Assembly (NCBI GenBank): GCA_035528375.1
Contig: DATKYS010000033.1
Coordinates: 1 to 44,113, forward strand
Direction: 5' to 3'
Origin: a bacterium
Lineage (GTDB): Bacteria; RBG-13-66-14
DNA: 44,113 nt
This document shows, piece after piece, positions 7,401-25,145 of this stretch. Position numbers and translations under genes: made by a program. How positions within the stretch are numbered: position 1 is the first letter of the stretch; every line of letters begins with the position of its first letter. Below the pieces are notes generated by a model. That model had not been told where the DNA came from. It was given only the letters and a program-made list of their open reading frames with translations, and searched no databases.

Positions 7401-10400
7401 AGGGCCTCCAGGTTCTCGGCGCGCAGGACGGCTATCTCGGCCTGCCGGGCGAAGATGGAGAGCTTCTCGACGTCCTCCTCGGTGAAGACGTCGTCCTCCT
7501 TGTTGATGCTGATGACGCCGATGACCCGCCCGGAGTCGAACATGGGCACCGCGAGCACCGATTCACGCAGGTCAACCTCATCGCTGGTGCCGGGCACGTG
7601 GACGGAGAAGTCGTCGGAATCCCCCAGGTTGAGGCAGAGTCTCTCCCCGGTCTGGGCCACCCGACCGGAGACGCCCTCCCCCAGGGGGATATCGAAGTCC
7701 ATTATCTCCTCCGTCGCCGTGGGGTCGTTGCAGTAGATGGGCAGGAGGACACCGCGCTGGTCATCGAGGCGGTACACGGTGCAGTCGGACGCCCTGGCCA
7801 GCGCCGACGCCTGGTCGGCGATGACCTTGATCACCTTCAGGGGATCGGTCTTGTCGGCCAGGGCCAGGGTGGTCTCGTACAGACTGCGGTACGTCTCCTC
7901 GGAGCGGACCAGGTCCTCGGATTTCCGGGTCCTCTTCACCGCGATCTCCGCCTGGCGGGCGAAGACGGTCAGCTTCGTCAGGTCGTCCTCGGTGAATACG
8001 GCGTCGAACTTGCCGATGGTGATGACGCCCAGCACGCGCTCGTCGTCGAACATGGGCACGGAGATGAGCGACTCCCGCTCGTCAACCGTCGCGTCGGTGC
8101 CCGGGATGTGGACCGAGATGGCCTTCTCCGGGTCGCCGGGGTTGGCGAACATGCCCACGCCGGAGAGGGCCACGTGTCCCGAGAGCCCCTCGCCGAGGGG
8201 TATCGTGAAGTCCCTGAATATCTCCTGGTAATCCTGGCGGGTGGAGTAGATGGGCCTGAGCACCGACCGGCCTGAGTCCACCAGGAAGAAAATGCACTTG
8301 CGGCTCCCGAGCATGATCGAGGCCTTGTTCGCGATGACCTCGATCACGTGGAGGAGCTCGGTGGAGTCGGCCAGGGCCAGGGTGGTTTCGTAGAGGCTGT
8401 GGTACGTGCGCTCACTGGCGGCCAGCTCCTCGATGTTCTTGGTGCGCTTGACGGCTATCTCCGCCTGACGGGCAAAAACGAATAACTTCGCAAGGTCTTC
8501 GTCCGTGAAGGAGCCGGTGAACTTGCCCAGGGTTATCACGCCCAGGACCTTCCCGACGTCGAACATGGGCACCGAGATCAACGATTCGCTCGAATCCTCC
8601 CCCTCGTCGGTGCCCTCGACGTGGACCGAGACGTCGTCCACCTCACCGGCGTTCAGGTACCGGCCGACGCCCGACTCGGCCACCTTGCCCGAGAGCCCCA
8701 CGCCCAGGGGCACCTCGAAGCCCATGATGATGTCGCGGTAGTCGGGCCGCGTCGAGTAGATGGGGGTGAGCACATGCCGGTCGGCATCCAGGAGCAGGAA
8801 GATGCACTGCTGGGCGCCGAGAAGACCGGTGGCCTGGAGGGCGATGACGCCGATGACGTCGGTGAGCTCGGTGGAGTAGGCCAGGGCCAGCGTGGTCTCG
8901 TAGAAGCTCTTGTAGGTCTCCTCGGAGCGGGCCAGCGCCATCTCCGTCTTCTTGCGGTCGGTGACGTCCTCGGTGATGATGACCACCCGGCTCACCGCGT
9001 CCCCCTCGTCCCGGAGGGGGTAGAAGTGCTGGGAAACCCACCGGGCACCGCCGGACCGCGAAGGGACTATCTCGACCTCGGGGATGTGGAGGTAGTCGCT
9101 ACCCTCGTAAACGCGACGGACCTCGGGGAGCCACTCGCCCAGGTACTCATCCTCCTCGTCGAACTTGAGCTCCGTCCGCTCCCTTTTAAAATCGCGGCCG
9201 ATCTCTTCCTCCGTGACGGCCCAGATGCGCCTCCACGCCTCGTTACAGGAGAGCAGCCGGCCGAAACGGTTCCGCACCGACACGCCCAGGGGCGAGCGCT
9301 CGATGAGCGCCCGGCTGAACTCCTCCGACTCGCGCAGCGCCTCCTGGGCCAGGACGCGCTCGGTCACGTTCTCCAGGATGCCGTCTATGTGCCGATCCTT
9401 CCCCCGCTCGTCCCGGACCAGGGTGGCGTTGAGCGAGGCCCAGAAGGTGGAGTCGTCCTTTTTCCGCTGCTGGACGCAGAAATCGGTCACGAAGCCCTTC
9501 GTCGTCAGCGACTCCACGAACTCTCGGCGCTGCCGGGGGTCGGTGTAGAAGTCGCCCACGTTGACCGACAGCATCTCATCCTCGGAGGCGTAGCCGAACA
9601 TGGCGTAGAGGGCCGGGTTGGCCGACAGCACCTCCCCCTCGGGGCTGGTGCGGAAGACGCCCACGGGGATGTTCTCCTGGAGGGAGCGGTAGCGCTCCTC
9701 GGAGTCGCGCAGGGCCACCTCGGTCAGTTCCTCCTGGGTGATGTCCCGGATGACGGTCACCACCCGGTCCACTCGGTCACCCTTGAAAATCGGTATCTTG
9801 CGGGTCTCGGTGATGATCTCCCGCCCGCCGACGACGTTCTTCTCCTCGGTCAGGAGCGTTCGGCCGCTGGAGAAGACCTCCTTGTACTCGGCCCTGACGC
9901 TCTTCGGGAGGAACCCGAAGGCCCCGAAGAAGCTCTTCCCCGTCACCACCGGGTCCAGGCCCAGCTCCTCCACCCAGCGCGTGAGTTTCGTGTTGACCAG
10001 AGTGATGCGAAGCTTGGAGTCCACGACGTGGATGGCGTCCCCCATGGAGTCCAGGGTCGTGCGGTACTGTTCCTCGGATTCCCGCAGGTGTTCGTGGATA
10101 GCCTTGCGCTCGCTCTGGTCCACCAGGATGCCGTCGTGGAAGACTATCTCCCCGTCGGCGTCCCGCACCGCCCGCACGTTGATCTGCACCCAGAAGGTGG
10201 AGCCGTCCCGGCGGAGCATCTCCGCCTCGAAATCGGCCACCACATCCTTTTCGGTCAGAGCGTCGAGGAGCTCGAGCCGCCGCTCCGGCGAGGCGTAGAG
10301 GTCTACCACCCCCACGTCGAACATCTCGTCGGGGGAGGAGTAGCCGAACATCCTCACGAAGGCGGGGTTGACGGAGATGACCCGGCCGTCGTGCGTCACC

Positions 10401-13400
10401 CGGAACACCCCCACCGGGATGTTGTCCTGGAGGGAGCGGTAGCGCTCCTCGGACTCACGGAGCGCCTCCGACGCCCGGACGCTCTCCGTGATGTCGAAGC
10501 AGTTCCCCAGGTAGGCGGCTCGGCCCCCGTAGGGGATCGGCCGGGCACCGACCAGGAGGACCACCGTTTCGCCGTCCTTCCTCTTGATCCGCATCGTGTA
10601 CCGGCTGGGGACTTGGGAGCCCGATTTGCGGGCCGCGTCCCGTCGGGCGAGGAGATCCCGGTCCTCCTCGTGGACCAGCTCGCCGGTGTCCAGGGTCAGC
10701 AGTTCCTTTTTGGTGTAGCCGGTGATTTCGGCCATCTCGTTGTTGACGTAGAGGAAGTTGGCGTCCCGGTAGATGTAAACCCCGACGATGGCCTCCTCGG
10801 AGAGAACGCGGTAGCGTTCCTCGGACTCGCGGAGCGCCTCCTCGGCCAGCTTGCGGTCGGTGATGTCGCGGGACACGCCGACGATGGCGGTGGCCTTCTT
10901 CCCCGACTCGTCGTACACCACGGTGCGGGCGTCGGACAGCCAGCGATACTCGCCGTCCGCGTGGCGCAGGCGGTACTCGATGACCGGATTCTCCACCGCC
11001 CCGCGGGCGTTGTCCCGCAGCGCCTCCGCGTCCGCCACCACCACGGCCGTGTCGTCGGGGTGGATCCGCTTCGCCAGCTCGCCCGACTTCGCCATCTCGA
11101 CGAACTGCTCGACCCCGTAGCCGAGGATTTTCACCAGCGCCGGGGAGAGGTACGCGTAGCTCTCATCCTCCAGGTTCACCCGGTAGAAGAGGTCGTTGGT
11201 GTTTTCCACCAGGAAGCGGTATCTCTTCTCGGATTCGCGGAGCGCCTCCTCGGCCCGCACGCTCTCGGTTATGTCCATGCAGTTGCCCAGGGTGGTCGCG
11301 CCGCCGCCCCCCCCGAAGCTCGGAAGATGCCGCACCCGGAGCTCGACCACGCGGGTCTCGCCGTCTTTGCGCAGGATGTGCATCTGATAGCTGGATGGCA
11401 CCCCCTCGCCTTTGGCCCGCACCTCGTTGAGCCGGCGGATGAACTCCTGGTCCTCCTCGGGGACGACGTCCCAGGGATTCATCTTCAGGAGCTCTTCCCG
11501 GCTGTAGCCGGTTATCTCCGCTAACTTGGGATTCACGAAGACGAAACGGTCGTCCTTGAATATATAGACGCCGACGAGCGCTTCCTCGGTGTAGGTGCGG
11601 TAGAGCTCCTCGGAAGCCGCGAGGGCCTCCTCGGCCCGCTTGCGCTCGGTGATGTCGTTGCCCGCTCCGATGAAACGCCGAATCCAGCCGTCCGGGTCCA
11701 CCAGGGGGATGAGGCGGATTTCGAAGGATTTTCTGCCGGCCCCCTCGCCGAAGCTGGCCTCGTTGGTGTGCACCTTTCCCAGCTTGGCCCACTCGAAGGA
11801 ATTCCTGATTCTCGCGCATTCATCCGGCGGATGCAGGGCGGATACGGGCCTCCCGTTGTAGTACTCGGTGGTGTGCCCCTCCACCGCGGCGAAGGCGTCG
11901 TTGACCTGCTCGTAGTAGAGCTCCCCGTCCTCCCCCTCCACGACCGACCACAACAGGACGTCCACCCCCTCGAAGAGCGCCCGGAGCTCACGCAGGTGCT
12001 TGTCCCGATCCTCCTCGGCCCGCACATGTTCGGTGATGTCCACGCAGTTGCCCAGGCTGGCGACGCCCGAGTCGTCGAACCGGAGCGAAGCGGAGGAATG
12101 CGAAGCAAAACCCGGGAGCCGCTGCGCCCGGAGCTCGAGCACCCGCACCTCGCCGTCGGAGCGCCGGATGTGCATCCGGTATGTGTTGGGCACCTCCTCG
12201 CCCCGGGCCCGGGCCTTCTCCCGCTCCCGCAGGTGACCGTCGCGGTCCTCCTCCAGCACGATGCTCATGGGATCCATAGCCAGGAGCTCTTCCCGCGGGT
12301 AGCCGGTTATCTCCTCCATCCGGTGGTTGGCGAAGACGAAACGGCCCTTCTCGAAGATGTAAACACCGACGAGCGCCTCCTCGGTGAAGGTGCGGTAGAG
12401 CTCCTCGGACTCCCTCAGGCGCTCCTCGGCCAACTTGCGCTCGGTGATGTCGCGGGTCACCCCGACGATGGCGGTGGCCTTCCCCGCCTCGTCGAGGACG
12501 ACCGTCCGCGAATCCGACAGCCAGCGGTACTCGCCGTCCGCGTGGCGCAGGCGGTATTCGATGGCGGGTTTTTCCCGCGCACCCCGCGCGTTGTCCCGCA
12601 GCGCCGCCGCATCCTCCAACAGCCATCCGAGGTCGTCGGGGTGGATCCGCTTCGCCACCTCGCCGGTCTTCGCCATCTCGATGAATTCCTCGGCCGTGAA
12701 GCCGAGGATGCTTTTCATCGCCGGGGAGAGGTACGCGTAGCTCTCGTCCTCCAGGTTCACCCGGTAGAAGACGTCGTAGGTGTTCTCCACCAGGAAGCGG
12801 TATCTCTGCTCCGATTCCCTCAGGCGCTCCTCGACCTCGACCCGCTCGGTGACGTCCTCGACGGTGCCCTCGTAGTAGAGCGTCTTCCCCTTCTCGTCGC
12901 GCACGGCCCTGGCGTTCTCGCGCACGTGGAGGTTCGCGCCGTCGAGCCGCTTCCAGACCGATTCCAGGCCGCGAATCTCCCCGCCCTTCTCCACCACCCG
13001 CTTGAAATCCGCCCGGGAGTGGCCCGACTGGTACCCCTGCTCCAGGTCCCGCCGGGACAGCTCCTCGAAGGAATCGTAGCCCAGCATCCGCACCAGGGCC
13101 GGGTTGGCCATGAGCACCCGCCCGTCGGGGGTGGTGCGGTAGATGCCGATGACGTTGTTTTCGAACACGCCCCGGAAGCGCTCCTCGGACACCCGGAGCT
13201 CGGCGGCGAGGAGCTGCTGTTCGACGGCCTTCCCGACGATGTCGGAGCAGGCCTTGATCAGGTTAAAGTCGTCCCGGCTGAAATCGAAGGGGGCCATGAC
13301 GGTGATCGAGCCGGTGATCCGCCCCGCCGAATCGGTGAAGGGGATGCCCAGGAAGGACGTGTTGCCGAACTTCTCCGCTATCGGGGCTGCGAAGGGCCGC

Positions 13401-14224
13401 AGGGGGCTTTTTTTCTCGACCAGCGCCTCGACCAGGGTACGGATGTCCGTCTGGTTGACTGGCGAGTCGGGCTCGAAGCCCAGGCCGTGGACCGTGGGGT
13501 GGCCGGTGCGGATGGTCCGGGCGATGACGCTTTCGCAGTCGAGGGGGATTTTCCAGTTGCTGAAACGCCGGCCGGCCAACTTTTCACCGAAGCGCAGGAT
13601 GGCCGACGCCACCCGGTGCGCCCGGACGACGAGGCATCGCCCCTCGTCCTCGACGAGGTTCACGCTCGAGTAGGTGGGGAATATCTCCGCGAGCCGCTCA
13701 ACGGCGGCGTCCAGGACCTCCTGCACCGACCCCATGGTGAAGAGCTCCCGGGAGAGGGCGGCCAGGACGGCGCTCTGCCTTACCCGGCGCTCCAGGGCCT
13801 CGGCGCCCGAAATGTCCTCCACCAACCCGTCGAAAACCGTTCGATCCCCGGCGGCCGACAGGGGCTCGAGGGTGAGGGACGCCCGAAGGGTCCCGCCGTC
13901 GGTCCTCTTCAGCTCGGTCCCGTACCCCCCGACCCCCTCGCCGGACCCGAGCCGCTCGAAGAGGTCCTTCGCGCGCCGGGGATGGGCCAAGAGGCTCCGC
14001 AGCTTGACCCCGACGAGGTCGCCGGGGTCCGTGCGGCCGAGCATCCGGGCCAGGGACCGGTTGGCCCACGAAATCCCCCCGTCCGCGTCGCAGCGGAAGA
14101 CGCCCTGCGGGATGACGTCGCAGAGGGATTCGAGGCCCGAGTCCGCCCCCCGGTCACCGAGCCCGGACCGGAGATCTCCCAGCTCGGCGATGAGTTGGGC
14201 CTTGGTCTTCTTCTCGTCTAGCAT
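4499..14224 (-). CDS. Giant soluble multi-PAS/multi-GAF sensor histidine kinase (3241 aa)
   Basis: I count about 15 PAS and 6 GAF domains before one kinase core. The order is PAS1 (~30-150), GAF1 (~165-335), PAS2-PAS12 (~345-1765), GAF2-GAF6 in tandem (~1770-2620, ~170 aa each), PAS13-PAS15 (~2625-3020), HisKA with phospho-acceptor H3035 (DIAHEVNNPLG), and HATPase with NLVTNAQDAM and a GTGLGLSVSYG box near the end. Linkers repeat the 'RESEERYR' helix typical of PAS chains. PAS3-PAS4 closely resemble PAS7-PAS8, PAS9 resembles PAS11, and the five GAFs resemble each other, so the protein grew by block duplication. No membrane segment or signal peptide is visible, so it should sense cytoplasmic signals. 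The ATG at 14224 has AAGGTG upstream. It is the first gene of a unit with the receiver-kinase and FemAB genes. Confidence 0.95.
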   Translation of the reverse strand: MLDEKKTKAQLIAELGDLRSGLGDRGADSGLESLCDVIPQGVFRCDADGGISWANRSLARMLGRTDPGDLVGVKLRSLLAHPRRAKDLFERLGSGEGVGGYGTELKRTDGGTLRASLTLEPLSAAGDRTVFDGLVEDISGAEALERRVRQSAVLAALSRELFTMGSVQEVLDAAVERLAEIFPTYSSVNLVEDEGRCLVVRAHRVASAILRFGEKLAGRRFSNWKIPLDCESVIARTIRTGHPTVHGLGFEPDSPVNQTDIRTLVEALVEKKSPLRPFAAPIAEKFGNTSFLGIPFTDSAGRITGSITVMAPFDFSRDDFNLIKACSDIVGKAVEQQLLAAELRVSEERFRGVFENNVIGIYRTTPDGRVLMANPALVRMLGYDSFEELSRRDLEQGYQSGHSRADFKRVVEKGGEIRGLESVWKRLDGANLHVRENARAVRDEKGKTLYYEGTVEDVTERVEVEERLRESEQRYRFLVENTYDVFYRVNLEDESYAYLSPAMKSILGFTAEEFIEMAKTGEVAKRIHPDDLGWLLEDAAALRDNARGAREKPAIEYRLRHADGEYRWLSDSRTVVLDEAGKATAIVGVTRDITERKLAEERLRESEELYRTFTEEALVGVYIFEKGRFVFANHRMEEITGYPREELLAMDPMSIVLEEDRDGHLREREKARARGEEVPNTYRMHIRRSDGEVRVLELRAQRLPGFASHSSASLRFDDSGVASLGNCVDITEHVRAEEDRDKHLRELRALFEGVDVLLWSVVEGEDGELYYEQVNDAFAAVEGHTTEYYNGRPVSALHPPDECARIRNSFEWAKLGKVHTNEASFGEGAGRKSFEIRLIPLVDPDGWIRRFIGAGNDITERKRAEEALAASEELYRTYTEEALVGVYIFKDDRFVFVNPKLAEITGYSREELLKMNPWDVVPEEDQEFIRRLNEVRAKGEGVPSSYQMHILRKDGETRVVELRVRHLPSFGGGGGATTLGNCMDITESVRAEEALRESEKRYRFLVENTNDLFYRVNLEDESYAYLSPALVKILGYGVEQFVEMAKSGELAKRIHPDDTAVVVADAEALRDNARGAVENPVIEYRLRHADGEYRWLSDARTVVYDESGKKATAIVGVSRDITDRKLAEEALRESEERYRVLSEEAIVGVYIYRDANFLYVNNEMAEITGYTKKELLTLDTGELVHEEDRDLLARRDAARKSGSQVPSRYTMRIKRKDGETVVLLVGARPIPYGGRAAYLGNCFDITESVRASEALRESEERYRSLQDNIPVGVFRVTHDGRVISVNPAFVRMFGYSSPDEMFDVGVVDLYASPERRLELLDALTEKDVVADFEAEMLRRDGSTFWVQINVRAVRDADGEIVFHDGILVDQSERKAIHEHLRESEEQYRTTLDSMGDAIHVVDSKLRITLVNTKLTRWVEELGLDPVVTGKSFFGAFGFLPKSVRAEYKEVFSSGRTLLTEEKNVVGGREIITETRKIPIFKGDRVDRVVTVIRDITQEELTEVALRDSEERYRSLQENIPVGVFRTSPEGEVLSANPALYAMFGYASEDEMLSVNVGDFYTDPRQRREFVESLTTKGFVTDFCVQQRKKDDSTFWASLNATLVRDERGKDRHIDGILENVTERVLAQEALRESEEFSRALIERSPLGVSVRNRFGRLLSCNEAWRRIWAVTEEEIGRDFKRERTELKFDEEDEYLGEWLPEVRRVYEGSDYLHIPEVEIVPSRSGGARWVSQHFYPLRDEGDAVSRVVIITEDVTDRKKTEMALARSEETYKSFYETTLALAYSTELTDVIGVIALQATGLLGAQQCIFLLLDADRHVLTPIYSTRPDYRDIIMGFEVPLGVGLSGKVAESGVGRYLNAGEVDDVSVHVEGTDEGEDSSESLISVPMFDVGKVLGVITLGKFTGSFTDEDLAKLFVFARQAEIAVKRTKNIEELAASERTYHSLYETTLALADSTELLHVIEVIANKASIMLGSRKCIFFLVDSGRSVLRPIYSTRQDYQEIFRDFTIPLGEGLSGHVALSGVGMFANPGDPEKAISVHIPGTDATVDERESLISVPMFDDERVLGVITIGKFDAVFTEDDLTKLTVFARQAEIAVKRTRKSEDLVRSEETYRSLYETTLALADKTDPLKVIKVIADQASALARASDCTVYRLDDQRGVLLPIYCNDPTATEEIMDFDIPLGEGVSGRVAQTGERLCLNLGDSDDFSVHVPGTSDEVDLRESVLAVPMFDSGRVIGVISINKEDDVFTEEDVEKLSIFARQAEIAVLRAENLEALAESEDTYHRLYDTTLTLADETDLFKIISRICDQATRLLDSIYCTYFTFDASEGVLVPFYSNAPREREAILGFTVSMGVGLSGKVALERAGNYSNYTDTDRPVVHVEGTDGEVDSIESVISEPVMDSDTLLGVITIGAEGKLYDEGDLGKLSIFARLASIAIKRAENHQALERSEDTYRTLYETTMTLADETDLEKVLAKIADNARLLMNAHFCNILLFDPEEGVLAPIYTNAPTSRDELMAFRVPLGVGLGGKVAQLRRGAYSNFCDPDRPVVHIEGTDDSEEHRESVMGEPIMDGDTLLGVFLIHALDRVFTDDDLAKVRVFARLTSVALKRSQYLEALEESEEKYRSLVEQATDGVVIVQDFRFVFVNTAMLAMSGYDSGEMLGKDFSDFIVPADRSRLADLYERRMRGEDVPSVYEVTGIHSDGHTVPLELNVGLIQYSGAPADLIIVRDITERKQAEELLRESEERYRSIWSKSPVGICLSDRMGEVTMANPALLQMLGFAEEGLVGKRFYDLIVPEEPGEMGELLGETLDTQVYQDKLAIFSGKPTELTLFKMSGDQIPVEMNIDFISRDKSIQYMISLITDITERKKAEEALANYSADLEREVDAKTAELSAARRYLREVIDASPDLVTVADAEGRLEILNRAASLAMGYAEDEVRGKPIGIFYFDRDRDTVAEMTRRLDEGRPSTVRQVDLRTKDGSPITVELSVSPLVDEKGRFTGSVAVSRDIRELEDLRLALTRSEKLAATGKLAADIAHEVNNPLGIITNYLQIARGDLDPSGEPYKTLGVIEEEVQRIARIISGLLDFYRPESAYLEHTDVNQLVEDLLMLVGIQLEKLGIAVEKDLADDLPGVLVSPDQLRQVLLNLVTNAQDAMPSGGTLRVHTRLSDRRVVISFSDSGLGIPPENLPYIFDPFFTTKGKKGTGLGLSVSYGIVQSFDGMMEAQSAPGEGTTFTISLPAREG

Positions 14225-14616: not shown

Positions 14617-17600
14617 CTACTGGGACGTGATGGTTATCACCCGCTCGGCGGAGTTGGCGCGGATGTCGGTGGCGTACATGCCGTAGAGCTGGGTGGGCAT
14701 CACGTGATAGACGCCGGGCCGCTCGGCGCGCACGCGGTAGCGAATCTCGCGCTCGCCCAGGGGCAGTTGGCCGTAGAAGAAGGCGGTGAGCTGCTCCTTG
14801 AGCTCGCGGTAGGTCCCCGTCTGCCAATCCCATCCCGAACGGTCCTTGGGCAAAAACTCGCAGCCGGCGACCCGCGGGTCCTCGACCGCCACGTAATCGA
14901 AGTCGTTGGGGCTCTCGATGGTGAGCACCACCTCGATGTAATCGCCCACCTTCACCGTCCAGTCGCTGTCCACCAGGGAGGTCAGGGTCGTCCCGTCGGA
15001 GCCGACGAGGTAGAAGTCGCGCTCGCAGCGGACGGTGTCCCAGCGGGCCGGAATCATCTCCTCCTTGGAGTAGAACTCCAGGGCGGCGGTGAAGTAGAGC
15101 CGGCCCGGACCGTCGCTCTTTTCGATGGTGAAGGGCAGGGTGCCCGGCTGGACCTCCTCCCCGGCGCGCTCGGTGGATACCCCGTCGCCCCAGACGTCGG
15201 GGGGCGTGAAGGGGGTCTGGATCAGCACCTCGTCCCCCAGCATCGCCGAGGCCAGGTAGTCGGTCGAAAGCTCGCCGGTGTAGGTCATGTAGTCAATCAG
15301 AGCCCAAACGGACAGCGCCGTGTCTATGGTGGACTTCCAGCGGTTGGAGCGGCGGTTGACCAGAAGCCAGTGGGCCGCCTTCTCCATCAGCGCGTTGTCC
15401 GGCTCGATTTCCAGCATGGCCTTCAGTGATAGCGCCGTGGTCTCCACGTGGTCCTGCCACCAGTACCAGCACCACTCGTATTCGTGGCCCCAGTAGGCGT
15501 CTTCGCGGGTCACGTCGGCGTAGCCCCCCATGTTCTCGATCACCAGGCGGGCCTCCCGGTCGTCGCCGTTCTCGTGGAGGAAGAGGGCCAACAGCGCCCG
15601 CGAGTAAGAGTCGAGCGTCTCCCGGCGGTCGTAGACGAGCCGCCACTGCTTCTCCGGCACCCCGGCATCCCACAGCGCCAGGGCGTAGAGGGTGTAGATG
15701 TTGAGGGTCGAATCTGCGGGCAGGTCTCCGTAGAGGCTCTCCAGGTAGCGGACGCCGGACTCGCCCATCTCCTGACGCTTGCTTTCCAGGTCGGGGTCCA
15801 CCCAGCTCACGTCGCCCACCTCGGCCAGGGCCACCATGACGTAGCTGGTGATGTGCTCGCTGGAGTACCCGCCGGCCCACCAGGGCCAGCCGCCGTCGGC
15901 GTTCTGCTGGCCGTAGAGGCGGGTGATGCCGCGGTTGACGGAATCGGACGCCGAGCCCTCCACCGCTCCGGGCGGCACCCCGAGCTCGTGCATGGCCTTG
16001 GCGAAGATGGCCGCGGGCCAGAAACGCGACGCCGTCTGCTCGACGCAGTTGTAGGGGTAGTACTGCAGGAAACTGATGGCGTCCTTGAGGCTTCCGGCCA
16101 GGCTCGGGTGGAGCCAGACGCGCAGGTGGGTCTGGGCCGGGTCTATCTCCTCGGGCAGCCGGAAGGTGAAGCGGTAGGGGTCGTCCTCGGCGCGGCCGGA
16201 CTCGAAGAGGTACGCGGGCGCCCCGTGGGGGACGACCTCCAGGCGGCGGATGAGCGCGTCCGAGCCCCGGTCGGTCTTGGCCGCCCCGGTGAGGGTGACC
16301 AGCCCGGCCTCTTTAGCCGCCAGGCGGAAATTGAAGACCTGCTCGCCGCCCGCGGGGATGGAAAGGTCGTAGAGGTCCGGGGTGAGCAGCTCGACGGCGC
16401 CCTCGGCCTCGGCCACCAGCCCGGCCTGGCCCTTGGCCGCCTTGGCGGTGTAGTTGCCCACGTTCAGGGTGAGGGTGGTCTCGTCGCGCTCGGTGAGGTA
16501 ACGCGGGTACTGGAGCCGCGCGACGACGGGCAGGACGGTGCGGAAGACCGTCTCGTCCTGGCCCACCCGGTCCTTCTCGAAGGCCCAGACCACCACCTGC
16601 CAGCCGGTGAGGTCGTCGGGGAGGTCGAAGCTGACGGAGGCGCGGCCCCGGGAGTCGGTCTTTATCTGGGTCTGCCAGTAGGCGGTGTCCTTGAACTCCT
16701 CGCGGATGACGCCGGACAGCTCCTCGATGAGCCCTGCGGCTCCGCGGCCGCTCACCTCGCCGGACTTGGGGGCGGCCTCCTCGAGGGTCCGGGCCGACAT
16801 GGGCATGGCGGTAGCCTCGGCCTCCGCCGCATCCGTGGCGTAGCCGGCCCCGCCCATGCCGCCGCCGTCCATCATCATGTCGTAACTGGCGGTCGTGATG
16901 TCGGAGAGCCTGTCCAACTCCGTGGAGGCGAGCCCGAGCTGGGAGATCATCCAGCCGTGCGGCAGCGCGCCCGCCGGGCTGCCCCAGTAGTCGTAGAAGT
17001 CGTAGTACGTCCAGTAGTCCGCGGAGCTGGCCTGGTAGAGGTAGCCGTAGTTGAAGTTCTTGAAGAAGAAGTTGCGGACGTCGGTGTGCCGGGGAGCGCC
17101 CAGGACGAAGAGGGCCGTGTCGAAGACGGTCACGGTGAGCCGGGCGTCGGACACCGCCCGCCCGTCGGCGTCGGTGACGGTGAGGTTCAGCGTGGCCTTC
17201 TCGCCCGGCGCGTAGCTCGCACGGGAGGGCTCCACCCCTACGGCGAGCACCTTCTCCTCGGGCACCACGGGCACCGCGATGCTGGCGGTGTACTGGTCGC
17301 GCTCGAAGAAGGACAGAAGCCTGAGGGTGGTCAGGGGCGCGTTGGCGCCCTCGAGTTTGATCACCTGCGAGGTCTCCCCCTCGCGGATGGTGACCGGAAT
17401 CGTCTCGCGGACCAGTCCGCCGCTCTCGACCAAAAGGATGCCGCGCACGGTGGACTTGTTCCAGGATATGGTCGCCCGGGCGGTGTCGCCCACGGCGTAG
17501 AAGTCCTTCTCCACGGTGAGGGTCAGGCTGGGCAGTATCTCCTCCGGCTCCACCGGCTCCTCGGAGACGTAGGCCCAGGAGAAGTGCTGGCGCCGGCCGC

Positions 17601-20274
17601 TCCACGGGTCCTCGAAGTCGGCCACCAGGATGTAGGAGCCTATCTCGAGCCCCGCGGTGCCCAGGGCGAAATCGAAGGCGCCCTCGTCGCCGGTCACGCC
17701 GGTGTATATCTTCAGATAGCCCTGTAGGTCCTGAGTGTCCCAGTTGTAGTAATTGGTGGGGACGTAGTTGAGGGTGATGGTCACCGGAACCCCGGCCGCG
17801 GGCTCCTGGAAGAGGTCTATGAGGCTGAAGGTGCCGGTGAGGTCGTCGCCGGATTCCACCGTGTCGGCGTCCAGGGTCAGGGTGGGCATGTAGAGGTGGC
17901 GCGCCGCGTTTGTCCCCGCGGAGCCGTCAACCGCCCGGCCCGAGGAGTCCGACACCGTCAGCGACAGATCGAAGTCGTAGAAGTAGGTGTACCAGCCGTA
18001 ATCCCAGAACTGCTGGTTCTCGTCGCCCTCGGGCCCGACCAGCATCACCGGGAAGCTGGCCGTGCCGTCGGCGCCGAGATCCACCCGCCCCGAGTAGACC
18101 TGGGTCGGCGAGTACCACCACCACCAGGAGTAGTAGTCGTCGTAGCCGGCTTCCTCGAACCAGGACGGTATCGTCTCTTTGTCCTCGCCGGGAATCTCCG
18201 GCATCCACCAGCGCGGGGTGCGGGTGACGGTGTAGCGGACCTCGCCCGCGGCCACCGGCTCGCCGTAGAGGTACTTCGCGGCCACCGAGGCCTGCGCCTC
18301 GCCGCCCAGGCGCAGGGGACCCTGCTCCAGGCTGACGGCCACGTCGAACTCCGGCTTCTTGTACTCCTCCAGACGGATGTAGGAGTAGATGACGGAGTAC
18401 TGGTAATCGTCGGCGTCGGTGTAGTAGGCGTAGAAGTAGATGTAGCCGAGCTGGGCGTCCTCGGGGATGTCGAAGGAGCCGCCGGCCCGACCCCGGGAGT
18501 CGGTGACGACCTCGCCCTCGTAGATGGTGTCGCCCGCCGTGACCTGGATTTCGAGCTTGAAGTTCTTCACCTGCTCGTAGCCGTAGATTCTGCCCGAGGG
18601 CTCTATCTCACGGCGCAGCATGAGCTCCCAGTTGAGCGTGTCGCCGGGCTTGTAGAGGGTGCGGTCGGTGCACAGATACCCCACCGGCTGCTGGCCGGAG
18701 AGGGCGTTGAACTCGTAGATGTCGGCGACGGCGTAGTGCCCGTCCTTCTCCGTCACGGCGATCGGGTACTCCAGGTACTCCTCCGGGGTGGAGAACTCGA
18801 TCCAGCCGTCGGAGTCGGTCGTCCCCTCGCGGGCGAGCTCCTGGTACCAGGGGGAGGCGTTCTCCTCGGCCCAGAGCTCGACCTTGGCGTTGGCGGCCGG
18901 CGTGCCGTCGTCCAGCCAGGCGCTCCAGACGTACCCCGCCCCTTCGCCGCCCAGGATGACGCACCCCAGGTCGGTGACGTTGAAGGTGGCGGCCGAGGAG
19001 ATTTTATCGTCCACGAAGGCGGCCAACAGGTACAGCCCCGGCCCCGGGTTCGGCAGGGTTATCTCCCTGTAGAAGGGGTTGTAGTCGTCGAGGCCCGGGA
19101 GCTGCTGGGGGTACACCGCCGCCGGCTCCCAACCGGTGAGGTCGGGCCGGGAGTCCTCGTCGGGATCCACCTCGGCGTAGTACCCGTCGTAGAAGGCCAT
19201 GAGCTCTTCGGAGGAGACGGGGTAGAGGCGCAGCTCGGCCGAGTCGGCCAGCCGGCTGGTGTACGACAGGGCGATGACCTCGCCGGTGGGCTGCACGCCG
19301 TCCACCTGGGGGAGCTGGAGGTGCGGGGTGGTGAGTCGTGTGGCGTTATCGCGCGCCGAGCCGTAGGAGTCCCAGGTGTCGGCGAAGCGGGCCGCCGCGT
19401 CGCGGTAGATCTCCAGCGCCTCGAGGGCTGAGTCCATGAAGACCTCGAAGTAGCCGGCCCGGGCGATGGCGACGTTGTAGGCGGACTGGCAGTCGGGCCA
19501 GCGCTCGAGCATCCGCGCCCACCGCCGGTCGGCCTTCGCCAGAATCGCGGCGTTCTCGGCGTGCCGCTCGGACATCAGCTCGCGCCACTCCGGCAGCTTC
19601 GGCGGGGTCTCCGGGTACTCCAGGATGTAAACCGCCCCCAGCTCCCGGTTGCCCATGGCGAAGTACGCCTCCTGGGCGATTTCCGGCGAGCAGTCCAGGT
19701 CCACGACCCGCTCGTACTTCTCCCACCACCAGGCCTCGGGGTCGAAGTCCTCCACGTAGGAGCCGTCCTCATTCATGAGGTACATGGTGGCTATTTCCAT
19801 GTAGAGCCGCGCCAGGCGGTCCACGCACTCCTGGTCGTAGGGCTCGTCTAGCTTACCCTTGACCTTTTCCATGACCGCCGCCGCGTCCAGCTTGAGCTTC
19901 TGGATCATGTAGGCGGACTGGTAGTAGGCCAGCTCGGTGTTGCCCCACCAGTAGAGGTTCTCGGAGATTTTGAGCATGCCCAGGGCGCCCCAGTACGTGT
20001 CGGGGAAGTCCTTGGTCAGGCGCAGGAAGTACTCCGAGGTGTGCTCGTAGTCGTAGAGGTACTCCGCCGACAGCGCCGCCTTGTAGAGCGCCAGCGGCAG
20101 GTACTCACTCCCCGGGTACTCGGAGATGAGCTTCTCGTAGGATTCCAGGGCCAGGTGGTAGCTCTTGTCCTCAAAGTGCTGCTCGGCCTCCTCGAAGATG
20201 GAGCGTTCACCGGCCCAGGCGCCGCCCGCAAAAAGCAGGATGAATAGCGCCACCAGGAAAAACCGTCGTCCCAT
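14617..20274 (-). CDS. Alpha-2-macroglobulin-family protein with TPR-like N-terminus and thioester
   Basis: The ~1885-aa exported protein belongs to the bacterial A2M family, thought to trap attacking proteases in the periplasm. It has a Sec signal peptide (GRRFFLVALFILLFAGGAWA) with no lipobox Cys, unlike many lipoprotein A2Ms. Residues ~25-300 are TPR-like helices (SYHLALESYEKLISEYPGSE). Next come macroglobulin domains (TDRTLYKPGDTL near residue 525), a Gly/Ala/Met-rich bait-like stretch near ~1135-1160, and the conserved LPDDLTGWQVVVWAF block. The thioester motif is CVEQ, with Cys1410 and Gln1413, followed by an alpha-toroid region. I chose the ATG at 20274 because AGGAGG precedes it by 4-5 nt; an in-frame ATG at 20289 lacks this. 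TATAAT lies at 20300-20295. No PBP1C gene, its frequent partner, is adjacent. Confidence 0.92.
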   Translation of the reverse strand: MGRRFFLVALFILLFAGGAWAGERSIFEEAEQHFEDKSYHLALESYEKLISEYPGSEYLPLALYKAALSAEYLYDYEHTSEYFLRLTKDFPDTYWGALGMLKISENLYWWGNTELAYYQSAYMIQKLKLDAAAVMEKVKGKLDEPYDQECVDRLARLYMEIATMYLMNEDGSYVEDFDPEAWWWEKYERVVDLDCSPEIAQEAYFAMGNRELGAVYILEYPETPPKLPEWRELMSERHAENAAILAKADRRWARMLERWPDCQSAYNVAIARAGYFEVFMDSALEALEIYRDAAARFADTWDSYGSARDNATRLTTPHLQLPQVDGVQPTGEVIALSYTSRLADSAELRLYPVSSEELMAFYDGYYAEVDPDEDSRPDLTGWEPAAVYPQQLPGLDDYNPFYREITLPNPGPGLYLLAAFVDDKISSAATFNVTDLGCVILGGEGAGYVWSAWLDDGTPAANAKVELWAEENASPWYQELAREGTTDSDGWIEFSTPEEYLEYPIAVTEKDGHYAVADIYEFNALSGQQPVGYLCTDRTLYKPGDTLNWELMLRREIEPSGRIYGYEQVKNFKLEIQVTAGDTIYEGEVVTDSRGRAGGSFDIPEDAQLGYIYFYAYYTDADDYQYSVIYSYIRLEEYKKPEFDVAVSLEQGPLRLGGEAQASVAAKYLYGEPVAAGEVRYTVTRTPRWWMPEIPGEDKETIPSWFEEAGYDDYYSWWWWYSPTQVYSGRVDLGADGTASFPVMLVGPEGDENQQFWDYGWYTYFYDFDLSLTVSDSSGRAVDGSAGTNAARHLYMPTLTLDADTVESGDDLTGTFSLIDLFQEPAAGVPVTITLNYVPTNYYNWDTQDLQGYLKIYTGVTGDEGAFDFALGTAGLEIGSYILVADFEDPWSGRRQHFSWAYVSEEPVEPEEILPSLTLTVEKDFYAVGDTARATISWNKSTVRGILLVESGGLVRETIPVTIREGETSQVIKLEGANAPLTTLRLLSFFERDQYTASIAVPVVPEEKVLAVGVEPSRASYAPGEKATLNLTVTDADGRAVSDARLTVTVFDTALFVLGAPRHTDVRNFFFKNFNYGYLYQASSADYWTYYDFYDYWGSPAGALPHGWMISQLGLASTELDRLSDITTASYDMMMDGGGMGGAGYATDAAEAEATAMPMSARTLEEAAPKSGEVSGRGAAGLIEELSGVIREEFKDTAYWQTQIKTDSRGRASVSFDLPDDLTGWQVVVWAFEKDRVGQDETVFRTVLPVVARLQYPRYLTERDETTLTLNVGNYTAKAAKGQAGLVAEAEGAVELLTPDLYDLSIPAGGEQVFNFRLAAKEAGLVTLTGAAKTDRGSDALIRRLEVVPHGAPAYLFESGRAEDDPYRFTFRLPEEIDPAQTHLRVWLHPSLAGSLKDAISFLQYYPYNCVEQTASRFWPAAIFAKAMHELGVPPGAVEGSASDSVNRGITRLYGQQNADGGWPWWAGGYSSEHITSYVMVALAEVGDVSWVDPDLESKRQEMGESGVRYLESLYGDLPADSTLNIYTLYALALWDAGVPEKQWRLVYDRRETLDSYSRALLALFLHENGDDREARLVIENMGGYADVTREDAYWGHEYEWCWYWWQDHVETTALSLKAMLEIEPDNALMEKAAHWLLVNRRSNRWKSTIDTALSVWALIDYMTYTGELSTDYLASAMLGDEVLIQTPFTPPDVWGDGVSTERAGEEVQPGTLPFTIEKSDGPGRLYFTAALEFYSKEEMIPARWDTVRCERDFYLVGSDGTTLTSLVDSDWTVKVGDYIEVVLTIESPNDFDYVAVEDPRVAGCEFLPKDRSGWDWQTGTYRELKEQLTAFFYGQLPLGEREIRYRVRAERPGVYHVMPTQLYGMYATDIRANSAERVITITSQ

Positions 20275-20429
20275 CGGTCCTCCTCGCAAGGGGAATTATA
20301 TTAATACGTTTCGCATGAGCGTAGGGTTGCAAGACGCGGGACCCGGTCCGGGGTGGCCGGAGGGGGGGCCGCGTGGTAAGCTAGGGGTCGGAAACAGATT
20401 TTAAAGTATAGCACAAGCGGGATACCGGG

Positions 20430-21567: not shown

Positions 21568-22044
21568 ATGAAAGCGGTTTGGCTGTCGGTTTTAGTCCTG
21601 TGCGCGGCGGCAATGGCCCAGGACACCGACCCGCCCTACGTGGACCAGGTGTACCCGTGGGACGGCGAATACGATAGTTACGACGATATCGTATTCCACT
21701 GCATTGACGAGCAAAGCGCCATCGAAAGCGATACCATCGTCTTCACCCTGGAAGACGACACGCTGGGCGGGGGACGAACCGTCAGGAAAGCCGCCGGTGT
21801 ACCGATTTCACCGACCGTTCTCCTCCCCGGCGACCTTTATATAGACGACACCGACCCCTTAGACGTCATCTGCACCTTTGACCCCAAATATCCGTTGGCC
21901 TTTGACAGAACTTACACCGCCACCGTGGATGGCTGCCTGGCCGATATCTGGGGCAATGAGATGGGAGAGGACTTCGTGTGGAGGTTTGGTGGCATGAGCG
22001 TGGAGGAAACGAGCTGGGGGGAGGTCAAGGCACGGGAGTGGTAG
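21568..22044 (+). CDS. Secreted Ig-like small protein 1 with C-terminal WGEVK tag
   Basis: The 158-aa protein has a signal peptide (MKAVWLSVLVLCAAAMA) followed at once by QDTDPPYV, a start typical of Big_5/SbsA-type Ig-like domains ('D...PP.V....P..G'). The body ends 'GNEMGEDFVWRF', again as in Ig-like domains, and the last residues are VEETSWGEVKAREW. An AGGAGGTGGGG ribosome site precedes the ATG. It is the first of three tandem paralogues that share nearly identical leaders and tails but differ in the middle. The function is unknown; an exported or surface-displayed binding protein is the plain reading. Confidence 0.8.
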   Translation: MKAVWLSVLVLCAAAMAQDTDPPYVDQVYPWDGEYDSYDDIVFHCIDEQSAIESDTIVFTLEDDTLGGGRTVRKAAGVPISPTVLLPGDLYIDDTDPLDVICTFDPKYPLAFDRTYTATVDGCLADIWGNEMGEDFVWRFGGMSVEETSWGEVKAREW

Positions 22045-22053
22045 GCGGTCGAG

Positions 22054-22077
22054 CGTGGAGGACTCGTCCTCCCGGTC
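22054..22077. repeat. Degenerate fragment of the inverted-repeat element
   Basis: Seventeen bases here (22054-22070) match the core of the element at 29403-29419 exactly, followed after one mismatch by CCGGTC. The fragment lies in the spacer between the first and second paralogues, and its outer stem is lost. Confidence 0.55.
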
Positions 22078-22125
22078 ATCCTTATTTTGTGCCAAGAGAT
22101 AAAAGGTATTCAGGAGGTGGGGGGA

Positions 22126-22614
22126 ATGAAAGCGGTTTGGCTGTCGGTTTTAGTCCTATGCGCGGTCGCATCCGCCCAGGACACCGACCCGCCCTACGTG
22201 GACGAGATTTACCCCGAGGACGGCGATCCGGCACCGGATGAAAGGATTATCATCTTCCACTGCAAGGACACTGAAAGCCCTGTGGACCTCGACACCATAG
22301 ATTTTACAGTCTGGGAAGACTGGCCCTGGTTGGACAGGTCGATAACCGTGGATGCCGTGGAGGTTTTGGAGCGTACACCGAAAGTCATCAGCACCGTCCC
22401 CGGGGACCTGGACATAGACGACACAGACCCACAGGACGTCGTCTGCACCTTCGTACCGGAAGGAGATTTACCTGAATTCGATCACATCACCTGCACCGTG
22501 GCCGGGGGCCTGGCCGATATATACGGGAACGAGATGGTAGATGATTTCGTGTGGGAGTTTTGGGTAGATGTCAAAGAGGCGAGCTGGGGGGAGGTCAAGG
22601 CGCGGGAGTGGTAG
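22126..22614 (+). CDS. Secreted Ig-like small protein 2 with C-terminal WGEVK tag
   Basis: The 162-aa paralogue has the same signal peptide pattern (MKAVWLSVLVLCAVASA), then QDTDPPYVDEIYP, and ends VKEASWGEVKAREW. The DNA around the ribosome site and the first ~20 codons is almost identical to the preceding copy, whereas codons ~30-110 differ greatly. Conserved landmarks in the middle are 'IIFHCKD', 'PGDLDIDDTDPQDVVCTF' and 'GNEMVDDFVWEF'. It is probably co-transcribed with its neighbours. Confidence 0.8.
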   Translation: MKAVWLSVLVLCAVASAQDTDPPYVDEIYPEDGDPAPDERIIIFHCKDTESPVDLDTIDFTVWEDWPWLDRSITVDAVEVLERTPKVISTVPGDLDIDDTDPQDVVCTFVPEGDLPEFDHITCTVAGGLADIYGNEMVDDFVWEFWVDVKEASWGEVKAREW

Positions 22615-22662
22615 ACCCCCGTTATTCAGGCAAAGGTGGAAATACGTGAGGAGGTGGGGGGA

Positions 22663-23160
22663 ATGAAAGCGGTTTGGTTGTCGGTTTTAATCCTCTGCGC
22701 GGTCGCGTCCGCCCAGGACACCGACCCGCCCTACGTGGACGGGATGGACCCCGGCGATGGTGAGAACCCGGTTCCCATCGACACCGACATCATCTTCCAC
22801 TGCAAGGACGACCTCTCGCCGGTGGACACCGACACTATCGACTTCGCCGCCAGGGATACGACCCTGGATAAGGCGATTACCGAATGTACCGGGGCGGTTG
22901 AGGGCGTTTCGCCAGAACCTACCCGCACCATCGCCGGGGACCTGAACCTCGACGACTCCGACCCGCAGGACGTCGTCTGCACCTTCTACCCGGACGACCC
23001 GCTAAGTGACGGCGATGACATCACCTGCACCGTGGACCGCATGTTGGCCGACCGCCAGGGCAACGAGATGGGAGAGGACTTCGTGTGGGTTTTCTATACG
23101 TATATTCCCGATGGGGTGGAAGAGGCGACCTGGGGGGAGGTCAAGGCGCGGGAGTGGTAG
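22663..23160 (+). CDS. Secreted Ig-like small protein 3 with C-terminal WGEVK tag
   Basis: The 165-aa third paralogue has a signal peptide (MKAVWLSVLILCAVASA), an Ig-like body (DIIFHCKDDLSPVDTDTIDF; DSDPQDVVCTFYPDD; GNEMGEDFVWVF) and the tail VEEATWGEVKAREW. GAGGTGGGGGGA precedes the ATG. The one conserved Cys in 'FHCKD' and another in 'DVVCTF' occur in copies 2 and 3, with equivalents in copy 1, and could form a disulfide. A hairpin about 20 bp after its stop may end the transcript. Confidence 0.8.
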   Translation: MKAVWLSVLILCAVASAQDTDPPYVDGMDPGDGENPVPIDTDIIFHCKDDLSPVDTDTIDFAARDTTLDKAITECTGAVEGVSPEPTRTIAGDLNLDDSDPQDVVCTFYPDDPLSDGDDITCTVDRMLADRQGNEMGEDFVWVFYTYIPDGVEEATWGEVKAREW

Positions 23161-23177
23161 GCGGGCGAGTTACGTAG

Positions 23178-23356
23178 GGCGGGGATTCCCATCCCCGCCG
23201 CGTTTTCTGTATTCCCAACCCTGACCCTCACCCTAGACCGAGCCACGCTTGTTACGATGACGTAGGGGCGGGTGTCCACACCCGCCCGTTTATTTCTAAG
23301 GCAGCCCTCACCCCTAACCCCGTCGGCGCGCCGCCCCCACGGCGAGAGGGGGCCGC
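23178..23356. repeat. Palindromic repeats between the two convergent trios, possible terminators
   Basis: Stem 23178-23185/23192-23199 is followed by GCGTTTT, and stem 23266-23275/23278-23287 by GTTTATTT, so both could act as terminators for the + strand trio. GAGAGG/CCTCACCC-type elements lie at 23219-23245 and 23303-23356 in the reverse orientation. The rest of the 225-bp gap holds no gene. Confidence 0.7.
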
Positions 23357-23385
23357 CTTCAGCGGGGGAGGTCTCGATCAGGGCA

Positions 23386-23976
23386 CTACCACAGGGCCTT
23401 CAGACCGCCCCATGTGACCTCCCGGACGCCGAGCTCGGTCTCTATGGTCACGCCGATGAAGAAGTTGCCGAAGTCGCTCGTGGATTCCCAGCTCCCGTCC
23501 CTGCAGAACAGGTTGTGGAATCCGTACAGGCCGTCCACGACGATGTAGGCGTTGTCCTGAGGCCCGTTTTGCTCCACGGCCACCAGGAGCCAGTCCCCGT
23601 CCACGATGACGTCCAGGTCCACGCTGTACTCGCAATCGAAGTCCACCATCCACCGGCCCAGGTCCTCGCCGGGCAGGTCGCCCCCGGACCCGGAGAAGAG
23701 GTGGATATAGGAGCAATCGTAGCTGTAGCTCACCGGCTCGCAGCAGGCGTACATGCCCACCACGCGCACCGGCGGCCCCCCCATCATGTCGGTGGGGAAG
23801 CCGCAGGCGAAGTATTCCACCTGCCGGTAGAAGCCCACCATGCCCACGGCGATGTCGTCGTGCCAGCAGTAGGTCTGTTCCTCGGGCGGCACGGGCTCGA
23901 TCCGGATGCCCTCGAAGGCCGCCGCAGCGGTGCAGGCGACAAGCGCCCCGAGGACGGCTGCAATGAAAGTACGCAT
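23386..23976 (-). CDS. Secreted protein with C-terminal WGGLK tag
   Basis: The ~196-aa protein has a signal peptide (MRTFIAAVLGALVACTAAAA) and a beta-rich body with several Cys (TYCWHDDIAVG, YFACGF, YACCEPVSYSYDC, DCEYSV) that could form disulfides. It ends VREVTWGGLKALW, the same tag type as five neighbours. The ATG at 23976 is chosen because its two upstream neighbours also begin MRT; a GTG directly before it is possible. AAGGAG lies upstream. It is the last of three minus-strand genes with gaps of 20-31 bp. I recognise no family. Confidence 0.75.
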   Translation of the reverse strand: MRTFIAAVLGALVACTAAAAFEGIRIEPVPPEEQTYCWHDDIAVGMVGFYRQVEYFACGFPTDMMGGPPVRVVGMYACCEPVSYSYDCSYIHLFSGSGGDLPGEDLGRWMVDFDCEYSVDLDVIVDGDWLLVAVEQNGPQDNAYIVVDGLYGFHNLFCRDGSWESTSDFGNFFIGVTIETELGVREVTWGGLKALW

Positions 23977-24007
23977 CACGTCTTCCTCTCCTTAAGGGTG
24001 ACCGGGA

Positions 24008-24565
24008 TCACCACAAGGTTTTGATCAGCCCCCAGGTGCTCTCCACGACCTGGGGCGGCTCGCCCTCCCAGTAGCAGCGCAGCATGGCGTCGCACCAATC
24101 CACCCAGCCATATACGAAATGGTAAGTGTGGCCGGTGCCGTTTCCATCGAGACCCAGCGCGTCGCACAGGGGGTAGTGTCCGATATACTCCAGGGCGACC
24201 CAGAAGACGCCGTCGGTCAGCTCGACGTTTACGTCGGCCCACTGCCAGCCCGGGCCGCTGACGCAGGTCTCTTCCAAACTCATGCCGGGCCGGCCGTCCG
24301 AGTCGCTCATGACGTAGAGGTAGACCCCCTGGTAGGTTGAGTCGGGCCAGTTGGGCAAGATGTACGCCCCCACGCTCAGCACGGTGCCGACCGCGCCACC
24401 GGTCTTCTCCTCGTCGAACTGAACGTGCCAGAACGGCGCTTCAATATCTTCATCCCAGGGAATTTGGGACGAAATGCACGTGCCGTCGTCCCAGTAGAAC
24501 TCGTACACATCGGCGCCCGCACCGATGGCAAGCAGGGTCAGAACCAATATAACTTCGGTTCTCAT
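24008..24565 (-). CDS. Secreted beta-sandwich-like protein with C-terminal WGLIK tag
   Basis: The 185-aa protein has a signal peptide (MRTEVILVLTLLAIGAGA), then VYEFYWDDGTC, a start shared with the next upstream gene. Both contain 'LPNWPDSTYQGVYLYV' or a close match, plus 'W.DVNV.L.D..FWV' and 'MLRCYWE', so they are clear paralogues. The last residues are VVESTWGLIKTLW. AAGGGGAA precedes the ATG. The fold suggests a jelly-roll or Ig-like module; no catalytic motif is visible. Confidence 0.78.
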   Translation of the reverse strand: MRTEVILVLTLLAIGAGADVYEFYWDDGTCISSQIPWDEDIEAPFWHVQFDEEKTGGAVGTVLSVGAYILPNWPDSTYQGVYLYVMSDSDGRPGMSLEETCVSGPGWQWADVNVELTDGVFWVALEYIGHYPLCDALGLDGNGTGHTYHFVYGWVDWCDAMLRCYWEGEPPQVVESTWGLIKTLW

Positions 24566-24584
24566 CTCGACATTTCCCCTTCTT

Positions 24585-25145
24585 TTACCACAGGTTTTTA
24601 ATCCGACCCCAGGTGCTCTCTCGTATGGTCACCTCGCCGTCTTCCCAGTAGCAGCGGAGCATCAAGTCGTACGGCAGCCAACCGTCCGGCCCGGGGTGCC
24701 AACTGTGACCGGTGCCGCCGTTGGAGTCGTAGCTGATGGCGTCGCAGGCGGGGTACAAACCTATCTGCTTCCAGCCCACCCAGAAGGTGCTGTCGGAGAG
24801 CTGGACGTTCACGTCCACCCATGAGTACTGGCCCGGAATGCCGGGGGCGTAAACCTCGACGAGCTCATCGCCGGGGTAGCCGTCAGGGGTGTTGTTGATA
24901 ACGAAGAGGTAGCAACCCTGATAGGTGGAATCGGGCCAATTGGGGCGGGTGTACACTCCGAGACGGGTCACGACGCCGTCGGTCCGACCGCCGGTCAGTT
25001 CCTCGTCGAAGACGACGTAGTACCGCGCGGCGAAGTTGAAGGCGTAGGAGCCGCCGGGGACGCCGTTGTCCCAGTAAAACTCGTGTTCCACGGCCCACGC
25101 GCCCAGAGCCGTGACCAGCAAGAGGATTGCGCTGACGGTTCTCAT
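24585..25145 (-). CDS. Secreted beta-sandwich-like protein with C-terminal WGRIK tag
   Basis: The 186-aa paralogue of the gene at 24008-24565 has a signal peptide (MRTVSAILLLVTALGAWA), EHEFYWDNGVPGG, RPNWPDSTYQGCYLFV, SWVDVNVQLSDSTFWVGW, LMLRCYWEDG, and the tail IRESTWGRIKNLW. It is first in the minus-strand trio. Upstream, TTGACT (25261-25256) and TATTAG (25240-25235) form a weak promoter-like pair with a short 15-nt spacer. The paralogues differ mainly in the first third, apart from the shared start. Confidence 0.78.
   Translation of the reverse strand: MRTVSAILLLVTALGAWAVEHEFYWDNGVPGGSYAFNFAARYYVVFDEELTGGRTDGVVTRLGVYTRPNWPDSTYQGCYLFVINNTPDGYPGDELVEVYAPGIPGQYSWVDVNVQLSDSTFWVGWKQIGLYPACDAISYDSNGGTGHSWHPGPDGWLPYDLMLRCYWEDGEVTIRESTWGRIKNLW

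Follow-up and report, generated by a model that had tools for sequence, protein, structure and literature searches.

The window, that is, the whole stretch of 44,113 nucleotides that was analysed (contig C33 of a 2.63-Mb genome), contains at positions 21568-25145 six small open reading frames of secreted type. They form two convergent trios, three on the + strand followed by three on the - strand:

21568..22044, + strand: protein A, signal peptide and Big_5 Ig-like body (Pfam Big_5 E 8e-5), with the C-terminal tag SVEETSWGEVKAREW at 21997-22041
22132..22614, + strand: protein B, paralogue of A, tag VKEASWGEVKAREW at 22570-22611
22660..23160, + strand: protein C, paralogue of A and B (Big_5 E 2e-7), tag GVEEATWGEVKAREW at 23113-23157
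23386..23979, - strand: protein D, signal peptide, distant relative of E and F, tag GVREVTWGGLKALW at 23389-23430
24008..24565, - strand: protein E, beta-rich body of no named family, tag VVESTWGLIKTLW at 24011-24049
24585..25145, - strand: protein F, paralogue of E, tag TIRESTWGRIKNLW at 24588-24629

In the order A to F, the proteins end in VEETSWGEVKAREW, VKEASWGEVKAREW, VEEATWGEVKAREW, VREVTWGGLKALW, VVESTWGLIKTLW and IRESTWGRIKNLW. The six translations bear out the initial annotation of this locus, which held that all six share a C-terminal motif, and the ORF coordinates and strands confirm its two convergent trios. It had also counted two or three unrelated body folds. Proteins A to C are paralogues with 54-59% identity that carry the Big_5 Ig-like domain, and E and F are 49% identical; D, judged from BLAST matches that link it through proteins of another locus (L054), belongs distantly to the E/F family. 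The bodies thus fall into two families, A to C on the + strand and E and F with the distant D on the - strand. None of the six proteins matched any model in an NCBIfam search. The locus adjoins a gene for a bacterial alpha-2-macroglobulin of 1890 residues (14617-20289, - strand), and the window also encodes a sensor histidine kinase of 3241 residues with at least 15 PAS S-box repeats (4499-14224, - strand), which is very large for a bacterial kinase.

We searched the whole genome for the tail, using the reversed pattern as the control. The tail pattern with its stop codon gave 65 matches versus 9 for the reversed pattern, and a tighter pattern gave 47 versus 0. The core W-G-x-[IV]-K-[AT]-x-[FY], for which no stop was required, gave 41 versus 0; comparison with the matches of the stop-containing patterns placed at least 39 of these 41 within three residues of a stop, and the remaining two lie on contig C135. 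Tail matches in this genome are far beyond chance. More than 50 tailed proteins were read in stretches of the genome, most of them with a signal peptide and a few lipoprotein-like. Over all collected loci, the core motif was no more than two residues from the C-terminus in 249 of 254 cases. This set is biased, because many of its loci were fetched using the stop-containing pattern, but the unbiased stop-free search agrees with it. The clearest exceptions to a strict C-terminal position are three Eisenbacteria loci (L173, L175 and L229), in which a few residues extend beyond the tail (ALYRANPR, AIYRTGPR and ALYRADLQ). In genome G011, contig C68 carries three near-identical tail ends, WGLIKAGL, at 4987, 5092 and 5196 (L104, L111), with a spacing of 104-105 bases; they may stem from a gene end that was duplicated in tandem and is now decaying.

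The tail is not limited to this genome. Of the 14 genomes assigned to the window's phylum, which is inferred to be of Coatesbacteria type, at least 10 have the W-type pattern, with 47, 37, 43, 30, 16, 9, 3 and fewer matches. Other families of the phylum have a variant in which Leu, Met or Val replaces Trp, typically S-L-G-R-V-K-A-L-F-R, and when either form is counted all 14 genomes are positive. Tails were also found in 34 of 47 Eisenbacteria genomes, in 67 of 80 Krumholzibacteria genomes, with a maximum of 23 tails, and in 12 of 64 Latescibacterota genomes, which have one each, on several different bodies; control matches amounted to about one per phylum set. When 84,980 genomes were scanned for S-[LWx]-G-x-[IV]-K-A-L-[FY]-[R/S]-stop, at least 120 stretches matched, versus about 4 expected by chance. 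Among the matches listed, every genome with an assigned phylum belonged to the Coatesbacteria, Eisenbacteria, Krumholzibacteria, Latescibacterota or “Zixiibacteriota”. Some records called Zixiibacteriota belong with the window's phylum (G040 and G006 have identical SprA matches). The tail-bearing phyla are known mostly from metagenomes. The initial annotation had proposed a search of the genome and its relatives, and had stated that confinement of the motif to this locus would refute its reading as a sorting or anchoring signal; the motif proved to be genome-wide and present in at least four candidate phyla.

The anatomy of the tail was derived from 304 distinct proteins in 69 body clusters. 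The tail spans approximately 14 residues with the consensus V-x-[EP]-x-S-[WLF]-G-x-[VI]-K-A-L-[FY]-R-stop, and the weighted profile reads [VT][AP]V[EP][PE][TS]-S-[WLF]-G-x-[VI]-K-A-L-[FY]-R. The G and K were fixed by the collecting expression, and the A and R were part of some search patterns; conservation at positions -11 to -6, and that of the A and R, lay outside the collecting expression. Information is at the background level upstream of about -13 from the Lys. Codons at the conserved residues vary freely, which indicates that conservation acts at the protein level; an RNA- or DNA-level element was rejected on this ground. The terminal Arg is present in 188 of the 304 tails and is usual outside the window's genome. 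Within that genome only 2 of 48 tails end in Arg and most end in an aromatic residue; the tag has lost its Arg there. The hydrophobic moment at 100 degrees, which would reflect an amphipathic helix, was no better than that of order-shuffled tails (31% of shuffles reach the value), and the periodicity at 180 degrees was raised, though not significantly (12.5% of order-shuffled tails reach it). Since neither stands out, we claim no secondary structure for the tail.

These features bear on the possibility that the tag serves assembly or quality control, either by docking on a common scaffold or by being read by a periplasmic chaperone, the BAM complex or a PDZ protease. The mostly aromatic-ended tails of the window's genome, with hydrophobic or small residues at two and four positions before the end, loosely resemble an outer-membrane beta-signal, and the periodicity at 180 degrees is raised, though not significantly. 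However, the tailed bodies include soluble propellers and members of thioredoxin and lipase families rather than beta-barrels, and elsewhere the terminal Arg displaces the aromatic residue from the C-terminus, a change that a pocket reading the carboxylate is not expected to tolerate. We therefore regard this explanation as improbable. The outer-membrane beta-signal proper has the C-terminal aromatic seen in the window's genome but belongs to a beta-barrel body; it was rejected because the body families are soluble and most tails elsewhere end in Arg.

The bodies that precede the tail are diverse. They matched 42 Pfam families, including Big_5, NHL, the lamin-tail domain, beta-helix, thioredoxin, cupredoxin and GDSL lipase, many of which are typical of exported proteins. 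In the window, the body of protein F is followed directly by the tail, whereas at locus L054 one or two Big_5 domains stand between the same type of body and the tail (L054:15058-16101 and L054:13503-14912). These permuted modules make the tail INDEPENDENCE from the body: it tracks the C-terminus, not a domain. The same body modules also occur within longer proteins, with no tail between them, and one body family differs in tail type between two genera, W-type in one and L-type in the other. A functionless C-terminal extension, carried along by inheritance with a few duplicated families, could account for the fact that 144 of the 304 members fall into three large clusters of bodies (Big_5-type, NHL propellers and one further group). 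This explanation is already disfavoured, and we give it almost no credence, because the tail is spread over 69 body clusters and at least four phyla, is the only part that is sharply conserved, and is conserved at residues outside the collecting expression.

The initial annotation had further held that its reading would fail if the motif formed part of a conserved folded domain. AlphaFold gives the Ig-like body of protein C pLDDT values of about 90-98, whereas residues 153-165 fall below 50 and are coil. In its model of protein F, residues 171-186 are at about 25-34 and unstructured, although the whole model is of low confidence. Both models leave the tail outside the body. A Foldseek search with the protein C model gave only generic Ig-like or cupredoxin-like and S-layer matches.

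Export of the tailed proteins was assessed from their N-termini. By a crude regular-expression rule, not a trained predictor, 86% of the tail ORFs of 120-500 aa begin with a signal-peptide-like sequence, compared with 26% of the other ORFs (Fisher p ~1e-58). Tailed proteins at L038 (ends at 10178 and 10755) and L117 have lipoprotein-like signals (VSC-STG and LSC-TTS), suggesting that a lipid anchor and the tag may occur together in one protein. A C-terminal signal for type 1 secretion, whose substrates lack an N-terminal signal peptide, was rejected because such a peptide is present in most tailed proteins.

No model in Pfam or NCBIfam names the tail, and among the papers searched none was found to give the motif strings or to describe a tail of this kind, in agreement with the initial annotation, which knew of no named signal of this form. 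Among 89 tailed representatives there was no strong match to TIGR04183, the type A domain of the type IX secretion system (T9SS), or to TIGR04131, that of type B; matches stronger than about 1e-5 would appear among the NCBIfam families shown for them. As a control, the protein at 37505-39145 of the window (- strand) matched TIGR04183 with E 1.4e-10. The annotation was thus right to place a type A domain at 37505 and to distinguish the tail from it. The window's genome has 48 type A matches (23-67 in each of the 14 genomes of the phylum), so the two classes coexist. Overall, the tail is real, widespread and unnamed and, as far as sequence can tell, has the properties expected of a sorting tag.

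Several observations connect the tail with T9SS. Three sets of body domains bear either the tail or an FlgD/T9SS-type C-terminal domain (CTD), namely L030 versus L174 and L226, L159/L194/L234 versus L213, and L125 versus L288, which suggests that the two ends may fill the same slot. A short C-terminal T9SS signal is plausible, because the last 13 residues of type A domains, which include a conserved Lys, are required for export, and the last 22 residues of HBP35 suffice for export of GFP (PMC10202324). The K-A-L-F-R of the tail resembles the K-hydrophobic-R end of type A domains, which is a lead and not a test. The T9SS translocon SprA was found in every one of the 14 genomes from the phylum of the window. 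Among the Eisenbacteria it was found in 31 of the 34 genomes with tails and in 12 of the 13 without; for the Latescibacterota the figures are 12 of 12 and 50 of 52, respectively. All seven further genomes that were matched in the 84,980-genome scan and tested for SprA also had a match, which was weak in one of them. The three tail-bearing Eisenbacteria without a match are possibly incomplete assemblies. Being present in nearly all genomes, tail-free relatives included, SprA is uninformative about tail presence within phyla and was rejected as a co-varying partner. If T9SS is involved, a further factor is required, since T9SS is nearly always present and tail presence remains unexplained. Among the neighbours of the tail loci, we found no recurrent dedicated enzyme, shuttle or other partner; the largest neighbour cluster mixes FlgD/T9SS-type CTD proteins with tail-type proteins that have short extensions.

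The tag may instead be read by machinery other than T9SS, such as a receptor, transferase or protease, so far undescribed, by which proteins are fixed to the outer membrane, an S-layer or a polysaccharide. The tail has neither the size of a T9SS CTD nor a sortase-type membrane segment, and only some of the SprA-positive relatives have it, a pattern to be expected if a second factor must be present. In addition, the type A proteins of the window's genome still end in Arg while its tags have lost it, which makes a shared reader of the terminal Arg unlikely. Against such machinery, no linked candidate gene was found beside the tail genes, the tail is almost wholly confined to T9SS-bearing genomes in the phyla tested, and some bodies bear either end. 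We consider a reader outside T9SS possible but somewhat doubtful.

We are reasonably confident that the tail is a short, portable C-terminal tag for sorting or anchoring, a role that is inferred, without data on export or localisation. The reading proposed in the initial annotation is thereby supported: the tail is genome-wide, occurs in at least four phyla and lies outside the fold. What can be read directly is that the proteins mostly have Sec-type signal peptides and unrelated bodies, and that the tag is at the extreme C-terminus outside the folded body. Sec would export the tagged protein with its tag still exposed, and a common receptor would bind the tag in the periplasm or at the outer membrane and either move the protein across that membrane or fix it at the surface. 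Our best guess for the reader would be the type IX machinery with its SprA translocon, or a dedicated shuttle of the PorV or PorP-SprF type; that T9SS reads the tag is a tentative proposal, held at somewhat less than even confidence. Taken as a whole, the evidence is probably best explained by a portable sorting or anchoring tag whose reader is perhaps T9SS. It is also conceivable, though we would not yet assert it, that the Coatesbacteria, Eisenbacteria, Krumholzibacteria and Latescibacterota have in common an undescribed route of outer-membrane export or surface anchoring, with an unidentified receptor, whose substrates would bear only a soluble 14-residue peptide and no domain or membrane segment. 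A single genome can have up to dozens of exported proteins with the tail, and its recognition would unite many unannotated proteins as one secretome. It also raises the question of whether type IX or another outer-membrane route can read a short peptide and not a folded domain.

PEP-CTERM, GlyGly-CTERM and MYXO-CTERM were sequence-first discoveries that led to new sorting enzymes. Together with LPXTG, they are, like the tail, short portable C-terminal tags found on dozens of proteins, and some tailed bodies match families that elsewhere bear such tags (ScyF PEP-CTERM and ExeM-GG in NCBIfam). However, these signals have a transmembrane helix, and signals of the CTERM and LPXTG type are tripartite, with a motif, the helix and a basic end (PMC11980579). 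The tail has no such helix and few residues after its motif: only 1 of the 304 tailed proteins exceeded the hydropathy threshold for a transmembrane segment (mean above 1.6 in a 17-residue window within the last 40 residues), as the initial annotation anticipated in setting the tail apart from LPXTG, PEP-CTERM and GlyGly-CTERM. The type B (TIGR04131) and type C CTDs of T9SS are likewise C-terminal secretion signals, but they span about 100 residues with several motifs (PMC10202324), in contrast to a tail of about 14 residues with no linked shuttle gene and no recurrent PorP/SprF partner near the tail genes. Dedicated PorP/SprF shuttles serve type B, and the shuttle used differs from signal to signal (PMC12618676); by analogy, this arrangement is a possible model for the reader of the tail. 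A further parallel is the type A CTD (TIGR04183/PF18962), which is also C-terminal, follows varied bodies in proteins with signal peptides, and is present in many copies in the same genomes. That CTD is an Ig-like domain of about 72 residues, whereas the tail is unstructured. If T9SS does read it, the tail would be a minimal signal of that system, alongside the type A domain.
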